Assembly (NCBI RefSeq): GCF_000002985.6
Contig: NC_003280.10
Coordinates: forward strand, 5,576,501-5,640,500
Length of the DNA: 64,000 nucleotides
Direction of reading: 5' to 3'
DNA from: Caenorhabditis elegans
Lineage: Eukaryota > Nematoda > Chromadorea > Rhabditida > Rhabditidae
The first letter of the stretch is position 1; every line of letters starts with the position of its first letter. The translations under genes and the position numbers were made by a program. The notes beneath the pieces are model-generated. The model had not been told where the DNA came from. It ran no database searches and was given only the letters and a program-made list of their open reading frames with translations. Shown here in pieces: positions 43,423-56,879 of this stretch.

Positions 43423-45981
43423 TCATGGTTTCTGGATATCGAGTCGTTTGAGCACATCCTGAACCTCTTGCAACTTCTGAATATGTCGAATGAAATGTTC
43501 ACCGACGTGACGAGCAACTTTGGTATCGGCAATATTGATCATATCACGGTCTACGTAAAAGTCAATATCTGTTTGTGGCTCATCGTCGTCTGCTGATGAT
43601 GGTCCGGCTTCTTTGCCAAGCTCATTGACGATCATCTGAAATTCAAAATATTACATCAACACTCGAGATCATCGGAAATTCTTATATATACCTTGTAAGT
43701 GAGAAGCTTTCCAATGAACGAATCATAGTGCTCATCATCAACATCCATGAACGACGCAAGCTTCTTAGTTGGAAGTGTTGTGTAAAGTTTCAGGTATCCA
43801 CGAAGAACTGGTAACGCCATCTGTGATTCAATACCTTCCAGGAAAGATTGAGTTTGACGAAGAAGTGGTTCTTTCGATTGGTTGACTCCCTCATAGACAA
43901 CTGTGGTTGGAGACAAGAACTTTGGACATCTGCAACAATACAATACTATACAATTACTTGACTAATTTCGTTTCCTACCCAGTAGCAAAAGCATTTCTGA
44001 ATTCATCGATATTCCCGTTCGCCATGTGCATCATACGCTCACCACATCGCTCCGAAAGCTGAGAAGCAATGCTTTCATCGATTCTTTGTGGCTGGATGGC
44101 GAGGCAGATTGCAAGAAGATGGAAAAGCTGATCCCACGTCTTTCCAATCTGAAATCGGCAGAATATTATTGGGTCTTCATTAGATATTCAATTATTGTGC
44201 AAATATTGTGCAAAAAATTTAGAAAGTACTCACAACATCATATTGGAAGTTCTTTTTCGATGGCTGCTGATTTTGAACACTCTTTGTTCTTTGAATATAA
44301 AGCAGACAATTGACGAACATCTTTGTAGCTTCTCCGTAATTTCTCATCATCAAATGAGAAAATCCAACAAAGTAATGGAGAGTAACAAGGCAAGTTGGAA
44401 CTGTATTGTAGATTCCTTTTGGATCAATATCCACGTATTGCACGGTTTTCAAAGCCTGATGATAGTCTCCTAGAAGAACGTGAGTGCGGAGAAGTCCGAT
44501 GAGAGCGAAATATCCAAGCTTGAAGTAGAGATCCGATTGACCGAATTCATCGGCGACCGAATCCGGATTGCGTTTTTCCTGGAACGACTGTAGAGTTGAA
44601 AGCAAAAAAATAATATTGAATTAAACAAACCTTCAATGCCTTGAGCTGCTCCACAATTTGGGATTTTGATAGAAGCGAATAGAGAATGTTGAGAACTGGA
44701 TAGATATTCCACGCGTTCTGATTTTCTTCGATATTGATGAGATCTTCAACTTCATCAGCATTGCGTTTTCCTGGGTTAGCCTTGTAGAGACAGAATGCCT
44801 GAATATTTATATTACGTACAAACTCTACCAAAAAATATTACCTGGAATTGATAGACGAATTCGTCGATAATATCCCAAAGCCACACGTTAGGGAGAGACA
44901 ATGGAATTGGATCCTTGCTTGAGAGAAGCTCAGAGAATAACTCTTGATAGTTCATGAACGACTCATAGCGATGGACAAGGAGTGGTCCACGAGTATTTCT
45001 TGCATACAGCTGGCGATAATAGAGTTCCTTGTAGAGAATTATGAACAACTTGTTGCCAGGTCCAATAATTCTTTCGACAACATTCTCATCGGGCCACATG
45101 CGATCACGGAAGAATCTGAAATTAAAAGATAAATAGAAAACAATTTGAGATTATTAAATATTACCTCTCGGTGAGATCTGGAAAAGCTTGATCGTAGAGA
45201 GTCAAAATTTCCGGCACATTTTGTTCGTCAACCATGCGGGAAAAGTAGACCAGGTAGTCGGCGACCTCATTTGGAACTCCATCCTCATCGGCTGAAGCTG
45301 TTAAAAATTAAGAAATGAGATAAGTTTGTGTTGTTAACAAGCACCTAAATAACTACCATAAATATGTTTATAGAATTACTCTATTGATTGATTATCAATT
45401 TTTCTTTTGAAAAGATTTCACAATGCACGATCATTGATCCTCTGATACTCAACTTCTCTCTCGGGCTTTTAAATGATTAACTTCTTATGAACTCTTATGA
45501 ACACCTTTTCATTTATTATTTCTTTCAAATGAATAAAGCTGTGATTCATTTAATCTGAGATTTGAGGATATTCGACACCGAAAAACACTGAAAATGACAA
45601 AAGTAGTCATTTTCATATACAATGAGGGAGTTCTGAGAATTGGCATTGATTCTTCACTGTAACAGTATTTGGAAAATTTGGTTTTTCTGAATTTTATGTA
45701 TTTTGCTCATGGAATGTTAATCTGCAGTTTTTATGCAAAATTATTTCAGACCAAATTCTCCAAATGTCTGTTTGCCGAATTAAAATAAATCGGTTAATCA
45801 AAAAAGGACCGAGTCTTCAGTCTTTTCGAACTGTTTCAAATTTTAACATTTTTCAACTCATTTTACTCTTATTCATCAATTCTGAAAAATAGCATTCTGT
45901 GAACTTACAAGAAAAGGTGTTGGTGCGACGACGATCAGAGTGATCTTCAGTGGATAAATCGAATTCCACGCGTCGAGACAT
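43423..45981 (-). CDS. eif-3.L: Translation initiation factor eIF3 subunit L
   Basis: Eight exons: 45981-45909, 45297-45165, 45115-44842, 44798-44631, 44587-44234, 44148-43979, 43929-43692 and 43635-43423, total 540 residues, the family's usual length. The start MSRRVEFDLSTEDHSDRRR is followed by conserved eIF3l segments: MWPDENVVERIIGPGNKLFI, NVWLWDIIDEFVYQFQ, FYVDRDMINIADTKVARHVG. The PCI-domain region occupies the C-terminal part. eIF3l is a non-core subunit of eIF3 on the 40S ribosome. It is divergently transcribed from the npl-4 gene with 415 bp between the ATGs. Its intron 1 (45908-45298) contains a dispersed repeat. A truncated copy of the 5' end lies at 53526-54443. Confidence 0.95.
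45420..45806. repeat. Dispersed repeat in eif-3.L intron 1
   Basis: Sequence from CACAATGCACGATCATTGAT to ATAAATCGGTTAATC recurs inverted at 49690-49960, in the block copy at about 53880-54270, and in part at 61110-61300. Shared strings include ATGCCAATTCTCAGA and TTTTCGGTGT (or complements). It carries no coding sequence and looks like an old transposon-derived repeat. Confidence 0.7.
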
Positions 45982-46396
45982 TACTGAAAGAAGGTTTTTA
46001 TATTGATATTATTTAAATGTCAAACTAAATTCGAAAAGGTACGCTAAAATTAAGAGAAAACATTTTTTTAATTGTAAAATTTGATGAAAGGAATTGGAAA
46101 ATGTGATGGAAAAAAGAAAATTGCAAGCGTTGCATGGGATTTCGCAAGAGTGCCGCACGGTTTTTTGTGTACGCATTTGCTCGTCATTCATGTTGTCTAG
46201 GCAGTTTTGATGACATTTTTTATTCTAAAAACAAAATGTTTTATTTCATTTGCTGTTTAATGTTTGAATATGTATGGAAACTAATTTGATACCCTTTCCG
46301 CTGCATTATTTTTGCAAAATCTCAAAATTATATATCTTCAATTCACTACCTAGAAGGCATATCTTCCTGCATTTAAAAATCTATTTTATTTCAGAT
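45982..46396. promoter_or_regulatory. Divergent promoter eif-3.L / npl-4 (left copy)
   Basis: 415 bp separate the two start codons. The + side ends in TTTATTTCAG two bases before the npl-4 ATG, a trans-splice acceptor. No TATA box is apparent. The whole interval is duplicated at 54444-54858 with no difference that I noticed. Confidence 0.6.
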
Positions 46397-48217
46397 ATGG
46401 TAATTGAAGTCCCTCAAACTGAGCGTGTCAACGACGTTGATGTTTTTTTAAGCACGCAAGATGGTCAAATTCAGCGTCCAAAAGGGCCCAACTGTCGGCA
46501 TCCTGTACGTCAAAAGTGCACTAATTGTTTGCCTGTTGATGTAAGTGATATTTTCTGTTGTTTTCATAGAAACTAATATCAATATTTACAGCCATTCGAT
46601 GAAGAATATTTGAAAGAAAAAGATATCAAGCATATGAGCTTCCATGCACATGTTCGCAAGCTCCTTGGATCCCAGGGGAAGGGCACGACTCTCAAAAAAC
46701 CGCTGGAAAACTTTCGATGTTCATTAAAACCCAACTGTGATGCTCACAAGCCGTTCCCGAAAGGAATTTGCACTAAATGCAAACCACAGGTTGTAACATT
46801 GAATCGTCAAAAGTTTCGTCATGTTGATAACATTCAAATTGAAAATCAAGAGCTTGTAAATCAGTTTTTGGATTATTGGAGACTATCGGGCCATCAGCGT
46901 GTTGGATTTTTAATTGGACAGTATCAGCCTCACCTTGAAGTTCCACTAGGAATCAAGGTAAGTTCAGTACTTCATCACTCATTTCTTGAGACGAGTTATT
47001 TCATTGCTCATACTTTCAGGCTACAGTGGCTGCAATTTATGAACCTCCACAACACTGCCGTGAAGATGGAATTGAGTTTTTGGAGGATAAAAATCAAAAA
47101 ACTATTGACAATTTGCTGGAAATGCTTGGCTTGCAACGTGTTGGATGGATCTTCACAGATTGTTGGACAGCTAATAGTGCTGAAGGAACTGTACATTATA
47201 CACGGCACAAGGTGAGAACAATCTCGAAGAGAAGCCCAAAAAACGAATAATTTTTCAGGATTCCTTCTTCCTATCAGCTGAGGAATGCATCACCGCAGCA
47301 ATGCTTCAAAATCAACATCCAAACATCACAGAGTACTCGATGGATCGTCACTATGGATCCAAATTTGTGACCGTTGTTGCATCTGGTGATGAATCGATGC
47401 ATGTTAATTTCCACGGATATCAAGTTTCAAATCAATGTGCGGCCATGGTTGAAGCTGATATTCTCTGTCCAACACTGTACACTCCTGAATTGGCTTATGT
47501 TCGAGAGACACCATTATCCGAAGAACATTATATAACTGATGTTCAATTTTCGATGAAAAATGAATACGGAGCCGAGGTTATGAAAAACGGACGACCACTT
47601 CCAGTTGAATATTTGCTGGTGGATGTTCCTGCTGGAATGCCAAAAGAGCCTCACTACACGTTCCACGTTGGCACATCTAATAAATCGAAGAGTGCCAAAT
47701 TTAATGTTGAAAATCGACAAGCAATTGGACAACTTCAAGGAGGTGCAAATTTGATTCAATATTCATCCGAATTCTCTACAAATCAATTTTTGGAACAGGC
47801 TACAAACTTCCACTTTTTGCTCTATTTAGTAACCAATGACCAAGTGCAGATTTCTGATGAATGGATGAAACGATTGTGTGATGCAGTTAAAGCTCAGGAC
47901 AGAGGAACTGCAATGGAATGGGCTCAGGAATGTGAAGATTGGCATCAGTTGATGGCTTTAGCGCATGCTAATGGAGGAAGCGGCAATGACGGTAAGCTAT
48001 TATTTTAGTGTGTTTTTGCTTCTCCGCTTTCACGAAGAATTTTTTATATCAATTTCTCATAGTTTCAGATATTCCTGTCATTCCAAATGGTGATCCTTTC
48101 TCCGGATCAAGCAGTGGTGGATCAAGAGGAGCCGTTTGGAGCTGTGGACACTGTACATTCCAAAACGAAGCAGGAAGACAGGATTGCTCGATGTGTGGAT
48201 TGCCAGCTGCCGATTAA
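46397..48217 (+). CDS. npl-4.2: NPL4 homologue, left copy (probably NPL-4.2)
   Basis: Five exons: 46397-46540, 46592-46957, 47020-47211, 47259-47991 and 48069-48217, giving 527 residues. The zf-NPL4 domain has paired Cys/His motifs ([31 protein letters not shown]). It is followed by the MPN-like NPL4 core ([36 protein letters not shown]). A C-terminal RanBP2/NZF finger follows ([21 protein letters not shown]). NPL4 pairs with UFD1 to deliver ubiquitinated substrates to p97/CDC-48. The ~100-residue N-terminal UBX-like domain found in human NPL4 is absent. The ATG follows a trans-splice acceptor and no upstream exon is visible. It differs from the right copy at residue 3 (Ile/Leu) and residue 408 (Thr/Lys), with three further changes in exon 5. 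Which copy bears .1 or .2 is from memory. Confidence 0.9.
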
Positions 48218-49932
48218 AAATTATCATCTCAAAAAGTATATTTATTGAATGTTATTATTCTACTCGGTTTCTGTAAATTTCTATTCATTTTCCCGCTTTT
48301 CTACTAGTGTATTTCTACTGGTATGCTCTGTAAAGTCACCCACAAATGAATTCTTTTCTCCATATTTTTCATGAAGACAAATTAAGAATTAATTCTAAAA
48401 CAAAAGCAAAGCTTTAGGAGAATTTGGAAAAAATAACTTTGTTGCATCTGGTGAAAAAAAATAACACTTTATTTTTTATTATATCATCGTTTTTTTAATT
48501 ATTCACAACTGGTGGAATACCAGTATTAAATATCGCAAATTATCGAATCGGAGTTGGACCCGTGGAATCGAAGATGGTGAGTATTTCAAATCTTTTTCCC
48601 TCTTGCAGGCGATGAAAAGAAGAAAGAAGATTGTGATGAATTGAAGAAGAAAGAAGAAAGAAGAAATAATAAAAAAACCCTAAGCTAAGATAATCTGTAA
48701 CTATAGTGTAGTCATATAATTTGCTACTATAGTTTAGACTCACCGAAACCTAATCTAGGTGATGAACATTTTGTATAGACTTTTGTGAAAAGTTGAAACT
48801 GTAGTTTTCCCGCTTCTCGTTATTCAATTAGGAACTTCCATACTAAGACTACTAAGTTCATTCATCTTCTTGATTGTGTAAGATCCGGTAAACTGAGGAG
48901 ACAATTTATCGCGTTTTTCTTTTTGTAGAAGTGCTTAATTCCCCTTTTGAAAACAGCATCATCGATCTTCTCAGTTTATTCATAAGACGAATTCCTCTTT
49001 TCAATCTAACTCTTGATTTTCCGCTAAGTTTCTTATTAGTGACTTCGTAGCTTCTTGATTTGCTTTCTCTTCAGACCTTTTCCAGAATGATAAGAAACCG
49101 AGCTAACTCATTGTTGACAATTCAGCTTTCCTAAATTTCCTTTCTATTCGGATACAAAATTATTTCCTTGATCGGAGACTGAGGCACTCCAAAATGATTG
49201 AAGACTCTTTCATTTTTAGATTATTCGATTTCTTTTTGTTCAGCAAGCAGACATTTGGAGAATTTGGTCTGAAATTATAGAACTACTTAAAGGGATATAA
49301 TTTTTTGCATAAAAACAATTTGTATCGAGACCGGATACCGTATTTTTGCTGTAAAAGTCGCAGAATTTCGCGTATGGGTAATATCCACTTTAATTTGTGA
49401 CAGATCCGGTCTGCAGATTAACATATTAGATTTTTAATATTCAACAAAGAGCAAAATACATAAAATACAGAAAACCAAATCCTCCAAATACGCGTGGTGT
49501 CAGGCTGCCCCATATCAGCTTGATCTACAAAAAATGCGGGAATTTTCTCCCAGAAAAATGTGACGTCAGCACGCTCTTAACCATGCAAAATTGGTTGAGA
49601 TGTCTGTATCTCAACTCCCGCATTTTTCGAAGATCAAACCAACATTGGACATTCTGACACCCAAATTTGGGCATTCTGACACCCTTTTTTGATTAACCGA
49701 TACTGTTACTATTTAGTTAAAAATCAATGCCAATTCTCAGAACTCCCTCGTTGGATATGAAAAATGACTACTTTTGTCATTTTCAGTGTTTTTCGGTGTC
49801 GAATATCCTCAAATCTCATATTGCACAGCTTTATTCATTTGAAAGAAACATAATAAATAAAAAGGAGAACAAAGTTCATAATAAGTTCATTTAAAGTCCT
49901 GAAGTCCGAAAGAGAAGTTGAGTATCAAAAGA
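48218..49932. other. npl-4 3' UTR and repeat-rich intergenic sequence
   Basis: 48218-48440 is npl-4 3' UTR-like sequence shared with 56.7-56.85 kb and 57.76-57.98 kb. 48.45-49.25 kb is AT-rich with no gene. A hairpin-repeat arm follows at 49.28-49.38 kb, then an inverted copy of the eif-3.L intron repeat at 49.69-49.96 kb. Confidence 0.6.
49285..49380. repeat. Dispersed hairpin repeat, single arm (copy 7)
   Basis: AAAGGGATATAATTTTTTGC followed by TGTATCGAGACCGGATACCG and TATTTTTGC at 49289-49360. Only the right arm of the family is recognisable. Confidence 0.6.
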
Positions 49933-49960
49933 TCAATGTTCGTGTACAATGACTTGCTTG
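49690..49960. repeat. Inverted copy of the eif-3.L intron repeat
   Basis: Reverse complement of about 45420-45806, with indels. Matching strings are GATTAACCGATA, ATGCCAATTCTCAGAACTCC, GGTGTCGAATATCCTCAAAT and AGAGAAGTTGAGTATCA. A further matching piece lies at 49245-49280. The haspin-like kinase stop codon (49935-49933) lies within it. Confidence 0.7.
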
Positions 49961-50763
49961 AATAATTGGCGATCAAGACATAGATTTTTCCAATTTTTGG
50001 CCGCTCCCACCATTTTAACAGCTTGCCGGACTTTCTGAAAATTTATAATCAGTTATTGAATTCAGTTCCATACAAACCTTTTTATCCCTTTTACTTCCGT
50101 TCAAACTATGCCCGACGCGTTTCGCGACTGTGTGCAAACGACTGATGTCGTGACGCTCCGGATCGGCTGTAAATATAATTAACTTGAGTTTCCATCTACA
50201 TTAAAAATGAACTAACCTCCACACCAACTTTTCGAAAAGTCAATCAATTGCGGGATAATGCCAAATGTTTGAATCGTAATTGTTTTGCCATCAATGTTGT
50301 ATTCGATCCATCGTTTGGTTGTTGGAGCAATTAAAATATTCATCATATAGATGTCACCATGAACAAATTTCATCTTGTCGTTGGCAATCCTCATAGCCAG
50401 AACCAATTGAGCCATAATTGTGATACACCGTCTGTAGTCGCTGGTTCTCCAATCGGCCAAAACTGTTCCACCATAACCCATAAAAATCGCAAGATGGTTG
50501 ACACATTCGGAATTCCGCATCATTTTAGCTGGAAGGTCGCTTATGACGATTGATCCGTGATATGGCAGAAAATTATGGCAACTTTTTGACAATTTGCCAA
50601 TCTTCTGCGTGATCAAAAGTTCGTCGTGGAGTACCGAAATCGACTGTGGGTGAATACCTGTCACCTTCATAACAACCTCCTTGTCTTCCCACACCACCAA
50701 ATAGGCTGTTCCACTGGCTCCATACCCTAAGAACTTCTTGATTTCACTTTTGCACTTTTGCAT
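49933..50763 (-). CDS. Haspin-like protein kinase domain (divergent)
   Basis: Three exons: 50763-50217, 50166-50078 and 50034-49933 (245 residues from ATG 50763). Kinase features: glycine loop FLGYGASGTAYLV, VAIK-like Lys in EVVMKV, catalytic loop FVHGDIYMMNIL (His-Gly-Asp where canonical kinases have His-Arg-Asp), and a haspin-type segment IDGKTITI...PQLIDFSKSW in place of DFG. The last matches the haspin DGK..TI....IIDYTLSR layout. Nematodes carry many haspin-related genes, and I recall F59E12.6 among them. The ATG lies 20 bp inside the 3' end of the upstream USP coding sequence in another frame. It may therefore be part of the same transcript or a fusion by splicing. The catalytic Lys and Asp are present, so activity is possible. 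Confidence 0.65.
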
Positions 50764-52944
50764 CACTCCAAGGCACGATAGTTTTGGCCTCCGTTTTACG
50801 GATCAGTTTCCGTTTCTTGAAGAATCCTCCTAAAAATCGCCGACGTCGGAACCGTTGGAAGCGTGGCAAGGAGTGCGTGGAGATGGTATCATTTTCGTTT
50901 CCCACTACATCACACTTGGGAGGGCATCCGATGCCGAAATTGGGATCCAAAGCAAAATCATCAATGACAGGTTCTTCCATAATCGATACAGCAGGTGTAG
51001 ATTGCGGATTACGTCGAATTACCATCATGTCATCAGACATATCGTCATAGTCTCCGTCCATTTTGGCGTAAACCAATAAGCACGCTGAAGCCGTCTTACT
51101 GGATCCTGTTCCAAATGATTGAGCCGCAACATCCTCCCATCGAACATTGGATACCCTATCATCATCAAATTTTGACCACCGACTGCTTTCATTTTCTGAA
51201 AATTTTTGTGTAAAGCGTTATTTAATTTAGAATGAGTTTCAGTTGAAAACTATCAATTTTTGGCAATATTAGATGAAACGTTTTCTAAAATATTATGAAA
51301 ATTAGAGGTGGGCGGCAAACGATTTTTTCCGGCAAATCGGCAAATTGCCGGAATTGAAATTTCCAACAAATCGGCAAATTGCCGGAATTGAAATTTCCAG
51401 CAAATCGGCAAATTGCCGGAATTGAAATTTGCGGCAAATCGGCAAATTTCCGGAATTGAAATTTCCGGCAAATCGGCAAAATCTCGGAATAGAAAATTCC
51501 GGCAAATCGGCAAAATCTGGGAATTGAAATTTCCGGCAAATCGGCAAAATCTGGGAATTGAAATTTCCGGCAAATCGGCAAATTGCCGGAATTGAAATTT
51601 CCGGCAAATCGACAAATTGCCGGAATTGAAATTTCCGGCAAATCGACAAATTGCCGGAATTGAAACGTGCCTTAGTTTACTTACGAAGAACAAAACTGTA
51701 GAAGTGGCCTTCTTTAGCTGAGGAACCAACATGAACGATGAGTCCAGTCAACTTGTAATAACAACTTGAATTGGCATTTGGTTGGGTTGGAAACTTTTTG
51801 GTTCGAAACTTTTGGAAACTTTGGTTGGAAACTTTTTGGTTCGAAACTTTTGGAAACTTTGGTTGGAAACTTTTGGGGAATTCCATCCTCTCGTTCGATT
51901 TGGTTCTGTCTTCCATTGCTCGATCAAATTGCACGAACACCATATCAACTGAATTCGACGTGAAATGCTCAAAAAAATGTTCCACTGAAGCACGAAAATT
52001 TCCAACTTGAGCATTCACAGTCACTCCTAACGAGTCATTGTGTCTGAATGAAGGGAAGATGCGATCGAACATCTTCTTTTGATTGATATACAACTGTCTT
52101 TCCTCTTCACTGTGATTGTTCTCGTGATTCACATGATAATCCATTGCATCATCTATAGCAATTTCCAACCATTGACTAATAGTTGTGAATAGTTCACAAA
52201 CATCTTGCTGGTGGTCGATGATTGGAGAGGCGGACATTTTTTCCAGAACCTGTAAATATAGTTGAATTATTTAAAAACCACAGAAACTCAGTTTTTGTAG
52301 TAGAAAAAACAATTACTCACCTGTAACAACGCAATAACCTCAATTGGTCTTGAAGTTGACCTCGCAGATTTCAGTTCGCGGAATGTTCCAACTATGGTGT
52401 ATAGAAGCTCAGCATGCTTCAGATTCTTCTTGTTGTATTGAAGTGCGTAGTTAAGATATTCCATTGAAGTGAAATTTAGCAACACCGATTCAAGTTGAGG
52501 TACACGGATCAATAGTTGCACAATGCAGGATAACCAACATGACGAACTGCTATTGAATATCCCGACAGAAGACTCAGATTGAGCCAAAGTGTCAGACTCA
52601 GGACTCATCGATACACTCGGAGACACTATGACAGCACGTTCGTTCCATTTAACATTGAGCATATCCAACAAAAATTGTCTCCGTGTTGGTTGATGATTGA
52701 ACAGGTTCTAAAAAATAATATAGAAAAACGGTCTCTTAATTTCAAAAAAACTAAATCAAATAATGTGATAGACTCTCTCAATTGAAATAGATAAAATTGA
52801 GAGAGACCGTGGCTATTACATTTGTAAATTAATTTTCTTAAACTCTACTTCTATCTCCAGTGAGCCATACTCGTGAATTGATCGCATTGAATTCTTCTCT
52901 TCAATATCACCTTGTCCAATAATTACATCGTCTCGTGAGCACAT
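50744..52944 (-). CDS. Ubiquitin-specific protease (USP/UCH family)
   Basis: Exons: 52944-52849 (least certain), 52707-52321, 52249-51685 and 51195-50744, giving 499 residues in phase. The Cys box is GIFNSSSSCWLSCIVQLL (nucleophile about Cys89; the usual Asn/Gly pair is degenerate). The His box is KLTGLIVHVGSSAKEGHFYS (about residue 343). The downstream SRWSKFDDDRV, WEDVAAQSFGTGSSKTASA and LLVYAK are diagnostic of USP C-termini. It would remove ubiquitin from substrates. Exon 3 contains a 38-bp coding minisatellite just before the His box, giving Lys/Phe/Gln-rich repeats. Intron 3 holds a 34-bp minisatellite. The exon-1 donor (GTAGAG) is weak, so the start may differ. It lies between two npl-4 copies and runs into the haspin-like kinase. 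Confidence 0.75.
51328..51665. repeat. 34-bp minisatellite in USP intron
   Basis: About ten tandem copies of a 34-bp unit built on CAAATCGGCAAATTGCCGGA and ATTGAAATTTC. The first and last copies match the consensus best; the middle ones have AATCTCGG or AATCTGGG variants. It sits entirely in the 51684-51196 intron, so the long open frames here on both strands are by-products of the repeat. Confidence 0.9.
51787..51877. repeat. 38-bp minisatellite inside USP exon 3
   Basis: About 2.4 copies of a 38-bp unit (TTGGAAACTTTTTGGTTCGA plus AACTTTTGGAAACTTTGG) within coding sequence. The period is not a multiple of three, so successive units are read in different frames, producing a Lys/Phe/Ser/Gln-rich insert. 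Confidence 0.85.
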
Positions 52945-53525: not shown

Positions 53526-54443
53526 AATAATTCTTTCGACAACATTCTCATCGGGCCACATGCGATCACGGAAGAATCTGAAATTAAAAGATAAATAGAA
53601 AACAATTTGAGATTATTAAATATTACCTCTCGGTGAGATCTGGAAAAGCTTGATCGTAGAGAGTCAAAATTTCCGGCACATTTTGTTCGTCAACCATGCG
53701 GGAAAAGTAGACCAGGTAGTCGGCGACCTCATTTGGAACTCCATCCTCATCGGCTGAAGCTGTTAAAAATTAAGAAATGAGATAAGTTTGTGTTGTTAAC
53801 AAGCACCTAAATAACTACCATAAATATGTTTATAGAATTACTCTATTGATTGATTATCAATTTTTCTTTTGAAAAGATTTCACAATGCACGATCATTGAT
53901 CCTCTGATACTCAACTTCTCTCTCGGGCTTTTAAATGATTAACTTCTTATGAACTCTTATGAACACCTTTTCATTTATTATTTCTTTCAAATGAATAAAG
54001 CTGTGATTCATTTAATCTGAGATTTGAGGATATTCGACACCGAAAAACACTGAAAATGACAAAAGTAGTCATTTTCATATACAATGAGGGAGTTCTGAGA
54101 ATTGGCATTGATTCTTCACTGTAACAGTATTTGGAAAATTTGGTTTTTCTGAATTTTATGTATTTTGCTCATGGAATGTTAATCTGCAGTTTTTATGCAA
54201 AATTATTTCAGACCAAATTCTCCAAATGTCTGTTTGCCGAATTAAAATAAATCGGTTAATCAAAAAAGGACCGAGTCTTCAGTCTTTTCGAACTGTTTCA
54301 AATTTTAACATTTTTCAACTCATTTTACTCTTATTCATCAATTCTGAAAAATAGCATTCTGTGAACTTACAAGAAAAGGTGTTGGTGCGACGACGATCAG
54401 AGTGATCTTCAGTGGATAAATCGAATTCCACGCGTCGAGACAT
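53526..54443 (-). pseudogene. Truncated eif-3.L copy (exons 1, 2 and part of 3)
   Basis: Exon 1 (54443-54371), exon 2 (53759-53627) and the first 52 bp of exon 3 (53577-53526) of eif-3.L are copied with intact splice sites and start codon. The copy breaks after the codons for VVERII. Reading continues into unrelated sequence and stops after a few codons (TGA near 53517). The product would be about 90 residues with no PCI domain. Its promoter copy is intact, so transcription is possible. Confidence 0.9.
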
Positions 54444-54858
54444 TACTGAAAGAAGGTTTTTATATTGATATTATTTAAATGTCAAACTAAATTCGAAAAG
54501 GTACGCTAAAATTAAGAGAAAACATTTTTTTAATTGTAAAATTTGATGAAAGGAATTGGAAAATGTGATGGAAAAAAGAAAATTGCAAGCGTTGCATGGG
54601 ATTTCGCAAGAGTGCCGCACGGTTTTTTGTGTACGCATTTGCTCGTCATTCATGTTGTCTAGGCAGTTTTGATGACATTTTTTATTCTAAAAACAAAATG
54701 TTTTATTTCATTTGCTGTTTAATGTTTGAATATGTATGGAAACTAATTTGATACCCTTTCCGCTGCATTATTTTTGCAAAATCTCAAAATTATATATCTT
54801 CAATTCACTACCTAGAAGGCATATCTTCCTGCATTTAAAAATCTATTTTATTTCAGAT
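54444..54858. promoter_or_regulatory. Divergent promoter, right copy
   Basis: Duplicate of 45982-46396. On the right side it drives npl-4 (right copy); on the left it faces the truncated eif-3.L remnant. Confidence 0.55.
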
Positions 54859-56698
54859 ATGGTACTTGAAGTCCCTCAAACTGAGCGTGTCAACGACGTT
54901 GATGTTTTTTTAAGCACGCAAGATGGTCAAATTCAGCGTCCAAAAGGGCCCAACTGTCGGCATCCTGTACGTCAAAAGTGCACTAATTGTTTGCCTGTTG
55001 ATGTAAGTGATATTTTCTGTTGTTTTCATAGAAACTAATATCAATATTTACAGCCATTCGATGAAGAATATTTGAAAGAAAAAGATATCAAGCATATGAG
55101 CTTCCATGCACATGTTCGCAAGCTCCTTGGATCCCAGGGGAAGGGCACGACTCTCAAAAAACCGCTGGAAAACTTTCGATGTTCATTAAAACCCAACTGT
55201 GATGCTCACAAGCCGTTCCCGAAAGGAATTTGCACTAAATGCAAACCACAGGTTGTAACATTGAATCGTCAAAAGTTTCGTCATGTTGATAACATTCAAA
55301 TTGAAAATCAAGAGCTTGTAAATCAGTTTTTGGATTATTGGAGACTATCGGGCCATCAGCGTGTTGGATTTTTAATTGGACAGTATCAGCCTCACCTTGA
55401 AGTTCCACTAGGAATCAAGGTAAGTTCAGTACTTCATCACTCATTTCTTGAGACGAGTTATTTCATTGCTCATACTTTCAGGCTACAGTGGCTGCAATTT
55501 ATGAACCTCCACAACACTGCCGTGAAGATGGAATTGAGTTTTTGGAGGATAAAAATCAAAAAACTATTGACAATTTGCTGGAAATGCTTGGCTTGCAACG
55601 TGTTGGATGGATCTTCACAGATTGTTGGACAGCTAATAGTGCTGAAGGAACTGTACATTATACACGGCACAAGGTGAGAACAATCTCGAAGAGAAGCCCA
55701 AAAAACGAATAATTTTTCAGGATTCCTTCTTCCTATCAGCTGAGGAATGCATCACCGCAGCAATGCTTCAAAATCAACATCCAAACATCACAGAGTACTC
55801 GATGGATCGTCACTATGGATCCAAATTTGTGACCGTTGTTGCATCTGGTGATGAATCGATGCATGTTAATTTCCACGGATATCAAGTTTCAAATCAATGT
55901 GCGGCCATGGTTGAAGCTGATATTCTCTGTCCAACACTGTACACTCCTGAATTGGCTTATGTTCGAGAGACACCATTATCCGAAGAACATTATATAACTG
56001 ATGTTCAATTTTCGATGAAAAATGAATACGGAGCCGAGGTTATGAAAAACGGACGACCACTTCCAGTTGAATATTTGCTGGTGGATGTTCCTGCTGGAAT
56101 GCCAAAAGAGCCTCACTACACGTTCCACGTTGGCACATCTAATAAATCGAAGAGTGCCAAATTTAATGTTGAAAATCGACAAGCAATTGGACAACTTCAA
56201 GGAGGTGCAAATTTGATTCAATATTCATCCGAATTCTCTAAAAATCAATTTTTGGAACAGGCTACAAACTTCCACTTTTTGCTCTATTTAGTAACCAATG
56301 ACCAAGTGCAGATTTCTGATGAATGGATGAAACGATTGTGTGATGCAGTTAAAGCTCAGGACAGAGGAACTGCAATGGAATGGGCTCAGGAATGTGAAGA
56401 TTGGCATCAGTTGATGGCTTTAGCGCATGCTAATGGAGGAAGCGGCAATGACGGTAAGCTATTATTTTAGTGTGATTAACAACAATTTTGAAAATGATTG
56501 CTTCTCCGATTTTACAAAGAATATTTTAATCGATTTCTCATAGTTTCAGATATTCCTGTCATTCCAAATGGTGATCCTTTCTCCGGATCAAGCAGTGGTG
56601 GATCAGGAGGAGCTGTGTGGAACTGTGGACACTGTACATTCCAAAATGAAGCAGCAAGACAGGATTGCTCGATGTGTGGATTGCCAGCTGCCGATTAA
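54859..56698 (+). CDS. npl-4.1: NPL4 homologue, right copy (probably NPL-4.1)
   Basis: Five exons: 54859-55002, 55054-55419, 55482-55673, 55721-56453 and 56550-56698, giving 527 residues. Domains are as in the left copy: zf-NPL4, NPL4/MPN-like core and C-terminal NZF finger ([21 protein letters not shown]). Leu replaces Ile at position 3 and Lys replaces Thr at 408. Exon 5 differs by six bases in 149, with three residue changes (Gly for Arg, Asn for Ser, Ala for Gly). Intron 4 is 96 bp against 77 bp in the left copy. Its 3' UTR lacks about 80 bp present in the left copy. It should be a fully functional UFD1 partner for CDC-48. Name assignment between copies is from memory. Confidence 0.9.
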
Positions 56699-56879
56699 AA
56701 ATTCATTTTTCTGCTTTTCTACTAGTGTATTTCTACTGGTATGCTCTGTAAAGTCACCCACAAATGAATTCTTTTCTCCATATTTTTCATGAAGACAAAT
56801 TAAGAATTAATTCTAAAACAAAAGCAAAGCTTCAGGAGAAATTGAAAAAACGTTAAATACAATTTATGAAATGTTTTCC

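Follow-up and report, generated by a model that had tools for sequence, protein, structure and literature searches.

The window, a stretch of 64,000 nucleotides from Caenorhabditis elegans chromosome II (5,576,501–5,640,500), contains on its minus strand a gene that we take to be F59E12.6, in which the reading frame of a USP deubiquitinase meets that of a haspin-like kinase (Table 1). The USP model has four exons encoding 499 amino acids and ends at a TGA at 50746–50744, which bears out the position (50744) that an earlier note on this DNA had given for the end of the USP coding sequence. A donor at 52819 was also tried for the first USP intron and discarded, since it breaks the frame; 52848 was used instead. 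The 499-residue model matches the Pfam UCH family (PF00443) along the entire profile (positions 1–254 of 254; E 1.5e-24, 87.4 bits against a cut-off of 23.9), and its segments SCWLS, GHFYSF and WSKFDDDRVS align with TCYLN, GHYQAF and WYKFNDDKVS of yeast Ubp6, presumably the catalytic Cys, His and Asp/Asn boxes of USP deubiquitinases. By its full UCH domain and these aligned boxes, the protein classifies as a USP deubiquitinase, with ubiquitin cleavage as its predicted activity. By sequence, yeast Ubp6 and human USP25/28 are its nearest relatives of solved structure; the window protein shares the UCH domain with these and with USP14, and its Cys and His boxes can be aligned with those of Ubp6, but overall similarity to all of them is low, and none of Ubp6, USP25/28 and USP14 is known to carry a kinase at its C-terminus. 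A 38-bp tandem repeat of 2.4 copies (51785–51874) lies in coding exon 3 between the Cys and His boxes; its period is not a multiple of three, and the frame is kept open across it. The third USP intron contains a 34-bp minisatellite of 10 copies (51326–51665).

Table 1 Features of the USP-kinase locus, in window coordinates.
Feature	Position	Strand	Basis
USP exon 1, ATG 52944	52849–52944	−	In-frame join to exon 2; donor placed as in paralogue L017
USP exon 2, Cys box GIFNSSSSCWLSCIVQ	52321–52707	−	Aligns with yeast Ubp6 Cys box; homologous exons in L032 and L017
USP exon 3, QQDVCEL box and His box (GHFYSF)	51685–52249	−	Pfam UCH
USP exon 4: end of USP domain (WSKFDDDRVS), acidic and basic linker, N-terminal segment of the kinase module (TEAKTIVPWSDAKVQ), stop TGA 50746–50744	50744–51195	−	Gene model; paralogue alignment
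Candidate intron of the earlier note, corrected; probably not an intron	50727–50799	−	Weak sites
Insertion of 7 nt compared with paralogues; exact place uncertain within an 8-bp tandem repeat (50745–50762, 2.2 copies)	50745–50751	−	DNA alignment with L018 and L031; Trp-to-Gly spacing
Near-identical tract common to the window and the stand-alone kinase L018, gene-conversion-like	49933–50776	−	DNA alignment
First exon of haspin-like kinase (Gly loop, Lys, HGD, IDFS)	50217–50763	−	Pfam Haspin_kinase over cut-off; best PDB match human haspin, E 6.4e-7
Kinase exon 2	50078–50166	−	Splice sites; layout matches aligned L018 and L031 copies
Kinase exon 3, ending in the stop at 49933	49933–50034	−	ORF model; splice sites

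The kinase frame, which differs from that of the USP, opens at an ATG at 50763–50761 on the same strand and encodes 245 amino acids up to its stop at 49933. It scores 28.5 bits against the Pfam Haspin_kinase family (PF12330, cut-off 25 bits), compared with 30.7 for the near-identical copy L018 and 41.9 for the paralogue L017, both described below. The motifs GYGASG, VVMK, HGD and IDFS are present and presumably correspond to the Gly loop, the Lys, the catalytic Asp and the metal-binding Asp. Human haspin (PDB 2vuw), a kinase without a USP domain, is the best relative among PDB structures, but it has HRD in place of HGD and IDYT in place of IDFS. The DYT motif is typical of haspin, and because IDFS stands where human haspin has IDYT, we filed the window protein as haspin-like rather than as haspin; it classifies as a haspin-like kinase by its sequence, and kinase activity is predicted.

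The start of this frame lies 17 nt upstream of the USP stop, so that the two coding sequences overlap without intergenic space, in agreement with the earlier note. The ORF models and the Pfam matches to each part show that both frames and their overlap are real. A search of the genome (100,286,401 bases, 7 contigs) with the window kinase returned 20 matches, including the window itself and one locus, L031, as two pieces. The resulting alignment comprised 11 rows: eight paralogous loci with a match that reaches the Gly loop, one kinase-like exon on chromosome IV (L034, IV:6.087 Mb) and two rows for the window; the spacing comparison did not extend to the 10 further matches, which start beyond the Gly loop, at query residue 21 or later. 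A conserved Trp upstream of the Gly loop is present in 10 of the 11 rows, the exception being the window frame begun at ATG 50763, and each of the nine aligned paralogues has exactly 11 residues (33 nt) from this Trp to the first Gly of the loop, versus 40 nt in the window, where the Trp is read in the USP frame. The residues encoded from the kinase ATG ahead of the shared segment have no counterpart in any aligned paralogue. Junction DNA was matched in the genome only at the window, L018 and L031, and the aligned DNA of the latter two lacks the 7 nt found in the window.

Because the window's Trp sits in the USP frame and the spacing is expanded by 7 nt, we read the USP tail as the beginning of the kinase module and attribute the USP stop to a frameshift; both the stop and the overlap thus follow from a 7-nt insertion, at about II:5,627,245–5,627,251, that breaks the frame. 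A frameshift scar in a USP-kinase fusion gene is the most likely reading of the overlap. The net gain of 7 nt can be one insertion, or an 8-nt duplication combined with a 1-nt loss. Upstream of the break, the linker in the USP frame differs from L018 by seven synonymous and seven non-synonymous changes over 16 codons (dS 1.65, dN 0.22; a small sample), a pattern as expected for sequence read in the USP frame. The dN/dS of the window USP against fragments at the locus L032 is about 0.18 (79 codons) and 0.29 (83 codons), consistent with past constraint. L032 itself (II:5,566,040–5,568,438) is an inverted pair of truncated USP copies, 56–58% identical to the window USP.

Two further loci on chromosome II carry copies of the kinase sequence. 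The first, L018 (II:5,519,178–5,519,918, plus strand; match at II:5,519,379), which we take to be ZK177.2, lies 107 kb away, and its kinase is 98% identical to that of the window over 180 amino acids. It has the same kinase introns as the window gene, but differs in its 5' region, in its unbroken frame and in its Gly loop, which contains GDG instead of GYG; the ORF list of the region includes no USP. Besides the insertion, an alignment of the window with L018 has 6 mismatches in 824 sites over 50763–49933 and none beyond these up to 50776, whereas identity in the flanks is 54% over 67 sites (50830–50764) and 86% over 243 sites of the 3' flank. When polarised by L031, one of the six substitutions is specific to the window and five to L018. 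This near-identity suggests recent gene conversion, and could alternatively reflect a recent copy placed at the window locus. Such a young tract makes the intact kinase sequence a poor guide to selection since the frame was broken.

The second locus, L031 (II:5,494,649–5,495,388, plus strand), matches the kinase in two pieces (84% and 97% identity; II:5,494,859–5,495,388). Here, too, the kinase is divided between two frames, the split lying downstream of the Gly loop, and the 187-residue ORF of L031 has no Pfam match. Adjoining the kinase pieces is a 96% identical copy of window positions 51148–51430, which cover parts of USP exon 4 and intron 3. Around the window gene, segmental duplicates at 45064–48222 and 53526–56703 (98.9% identical over 3,179 aligned columns) form the flanks and hold the genes that the earlier note had called NPL-4. 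The 3' flank of the kinase gene (49700–49944) recurs inverted, at 82.6% identity, within both duplicate copies (45426–45668 and 53888–54130).

USP and kinase do not share one open frame in the window as sequenced, whereas they do in the gene model of L017 (II:6,067,166–6,061,977, minus strand), where a single predicted frame of 910 amino acids extends over eight exons and matches UCH (E 1.8e-24), SPK (PF04435, E 7.1e-14) and Haspin_kinase (E 8.6e-11) in Pfam. This model requires a 1,960-nt intron inside the USP, and its seven introns score 6.9–12.9 bits, with sites picked using the same matrices. Like the window gene, L017 has a USP followed by a haspin-like kinase on one strand, the same first-exon donor, a linker with a basic patch and TExKT..W, and kinase introns at the same places; it differs in its unbroken predicted frame and in the SPK domain between USP and kinase. 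Identity between the two is 35% in the USP and 43% in the kinase (kinase match at II:6,062,262). No SPK match was found in the 499-residue window model, nor at the window locus in the genome search. According to a published account, SPK domains are predominantly nematode, have no known function and have been modelled as MYB-like (PMC12886896).

In a kinase tree of eight rows, from which the L031 and L034 kinases were left out, the window and L018 group with L017 (support 99/99), and in a USP tree of five partial rows with very long branches, the window and L032 group with L017 (96/98). Additionally, USP, SPK and kinase-like exons are collinear within about 3 kb at IV:6.0866–6.0895 Mb (L034, IV:6,089,500–6,086,600, minus strand), with E values of 5.3e-20 for the USP and 4.2e-11 for the SPK (at IV:6.088 Mb). 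The two kinase-like pieces there reached no Pfam cut-off and are named from motifs and one alignment row, the locus being represented by exons rather than by a full gene model; it is possibly a damaged gene. A repeated segment lies between its USP, SPK and kinase-like exons. Elsewhere, a USP-like exon at IV:13.6375 Mb is in frame with an SPK (USP likeness of 36% over 68 residues, with no UCH match in Pfam), and another at V:9.4276 Mb reaches 38.4 bits for UCH; inspection of the ORF lists by eye showed no kinase at either place. From these comparisons, the fusion looks older than the break in the window.

The earlier note had proposed that the two frames are joined by a 73-nt intron at about 50795–50723, at the cost of part of the Gly loop. 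An in-frame candidate of this length free of stops does exist, at 50799–50727, and the cost holds, as its removal would replace the first Gly of the loop by Arg (KLIRYGASG). Spliced in this way, the gene would escape the frame break and encode a USP-kinase fusion of 714 amino acids; the intron covers the insertion and ranks fifth among 169 in-frame candidates of 35–450 nt, the four better ones all being longer. Against this, its donor (−2.4 bits) and acceptor (−0.4) sum to −2.8 bits, compared with 3.1–12.9 for 12 modelled introns of the window gene and L017 and 8.3–14.5 for four npl-4 introns (3.1–14.5 for all 16); these scores are relative only, with matrices taken from general knowledge, and the comparison favours the window and L017 models, whose sites were chosen by eye or with the same matrices. 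Its GC content is 41%, versus 24–38%, and in L018 its acceptor TTCTTAG falls within coding sequence (FLG). As a control for chance, 726 points were sampled in 10 ordinary exons, and 209 of them had an equally good candidate of 40–150 nt, with stops ignored; three of these exons had none, which speaks for the intron, and in the others the share rose to as much as half of the points. Being in frame is the one property in the intron's favour that stands, and we regard it as weakly supported; that it is spliced to give the altered fusion appears distinctly unlikely. The proposed fusion is supported as an ancestral architecture, by the unbroken predicted frame of L017 and the kinase N-terminal segment in the window's USP tail; the intron, with its weak sites, is an improbable joining device.

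If the kinase started independently at 50763, as a separate gene or as part of an operon, this would account for the ATG that opens a 245-residue frame, and kinase copies without an adjoining full USP do exist at II:5.519 and 5.495 Mb. This arrangement is nevertheless very improbable, since there is no intergenic space, the segment that precedes the Gly loop in the paralogues sits here in the USP frame and not after ATG 50763, and the 5' region common to L018 and L031 does not align with the window. An operon, an independent start or a designed overlap was set aside as unlikely, with the residues ahead of the shared segment unmatched in the aligned paralogues. The locus may still give dual products. 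In one such scheme, a ribosome at AAG UGA could shift +1 into the kinase, in a manner that we liken to the +1 ribosomal frameshift of antizyme mRNA, so that one mRNA would yield USP alone and USP-kinase in a regulated ratio, although we consider this extremely improbable. There is a small chance that other worms carry an unbroken fusion, the insertion being either an error of the reference or an allele that is rare or confined to certain strains. The change sits in an 8-bp tandem repeat, and the kinase tract is otherwise little changed, with one in six substitutions specific to the window; on the other hand, the one assembly covered here gave no sign of another allele. Such an error or allele would be compatible with the explanation that we favour.

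That explanation, which we hold to be likely, is that a small set of genes combines a USP with a haspin-like kinase, in at least one case with an SPK between, and that the window gene is a broken member of this set, once read through before conversion and then a 7-nt frameshift. The ancestral gene would have encoded USP, basic linker and kinase, read straight through within one exon and translated as one protein. The kinase part would have become near-identical to the stand-alone copy, 107 kb away, through a recent ectopic gene conversion, and the insertion, which lies in a short tandem repeat and about 25 nt within the converted tract, would then have shifted the frame. The present mRNA would be expected to encode a USP whose C-terminal tail stops within the first segment of the kinase module, leaving the kinase frame downstream without a proper start, such that the kinase is probably not made, or rarely made; mRNA levels may be reduced as well, since a long stretch containing two more introns would be left untranslated. 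Weighing against a broken gene, the kinase frame is still open to its stop, and the kinase may be expressed by another route.

A literature search, with most subscription papers outside its scope, found neither F59E12.6 nor F59E12 in combination with deubiquitinase and elegans. Among the matches listed, the gene was absent from titles on the kinome, fusion, USP25/DUF545 and gene conversion, and ZK177.2 was likewise not mentioned.

For the reading of genomes, the case is a warning that two genes which seem to overlap may owe this to a frameshift, and the window copy would be an example of a fusion that was split again by one small insertion within a repeat. On the present gene models, the chief object of interest would be the family, and within it most of all L017 with its unbroken predicted frame. 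L017 offers a direct target, in a laboratory worm, for testing whether one polypeptide can both remove ubiquitin and add phosphate, which would, if true, be unusual as an enzyme architecture.
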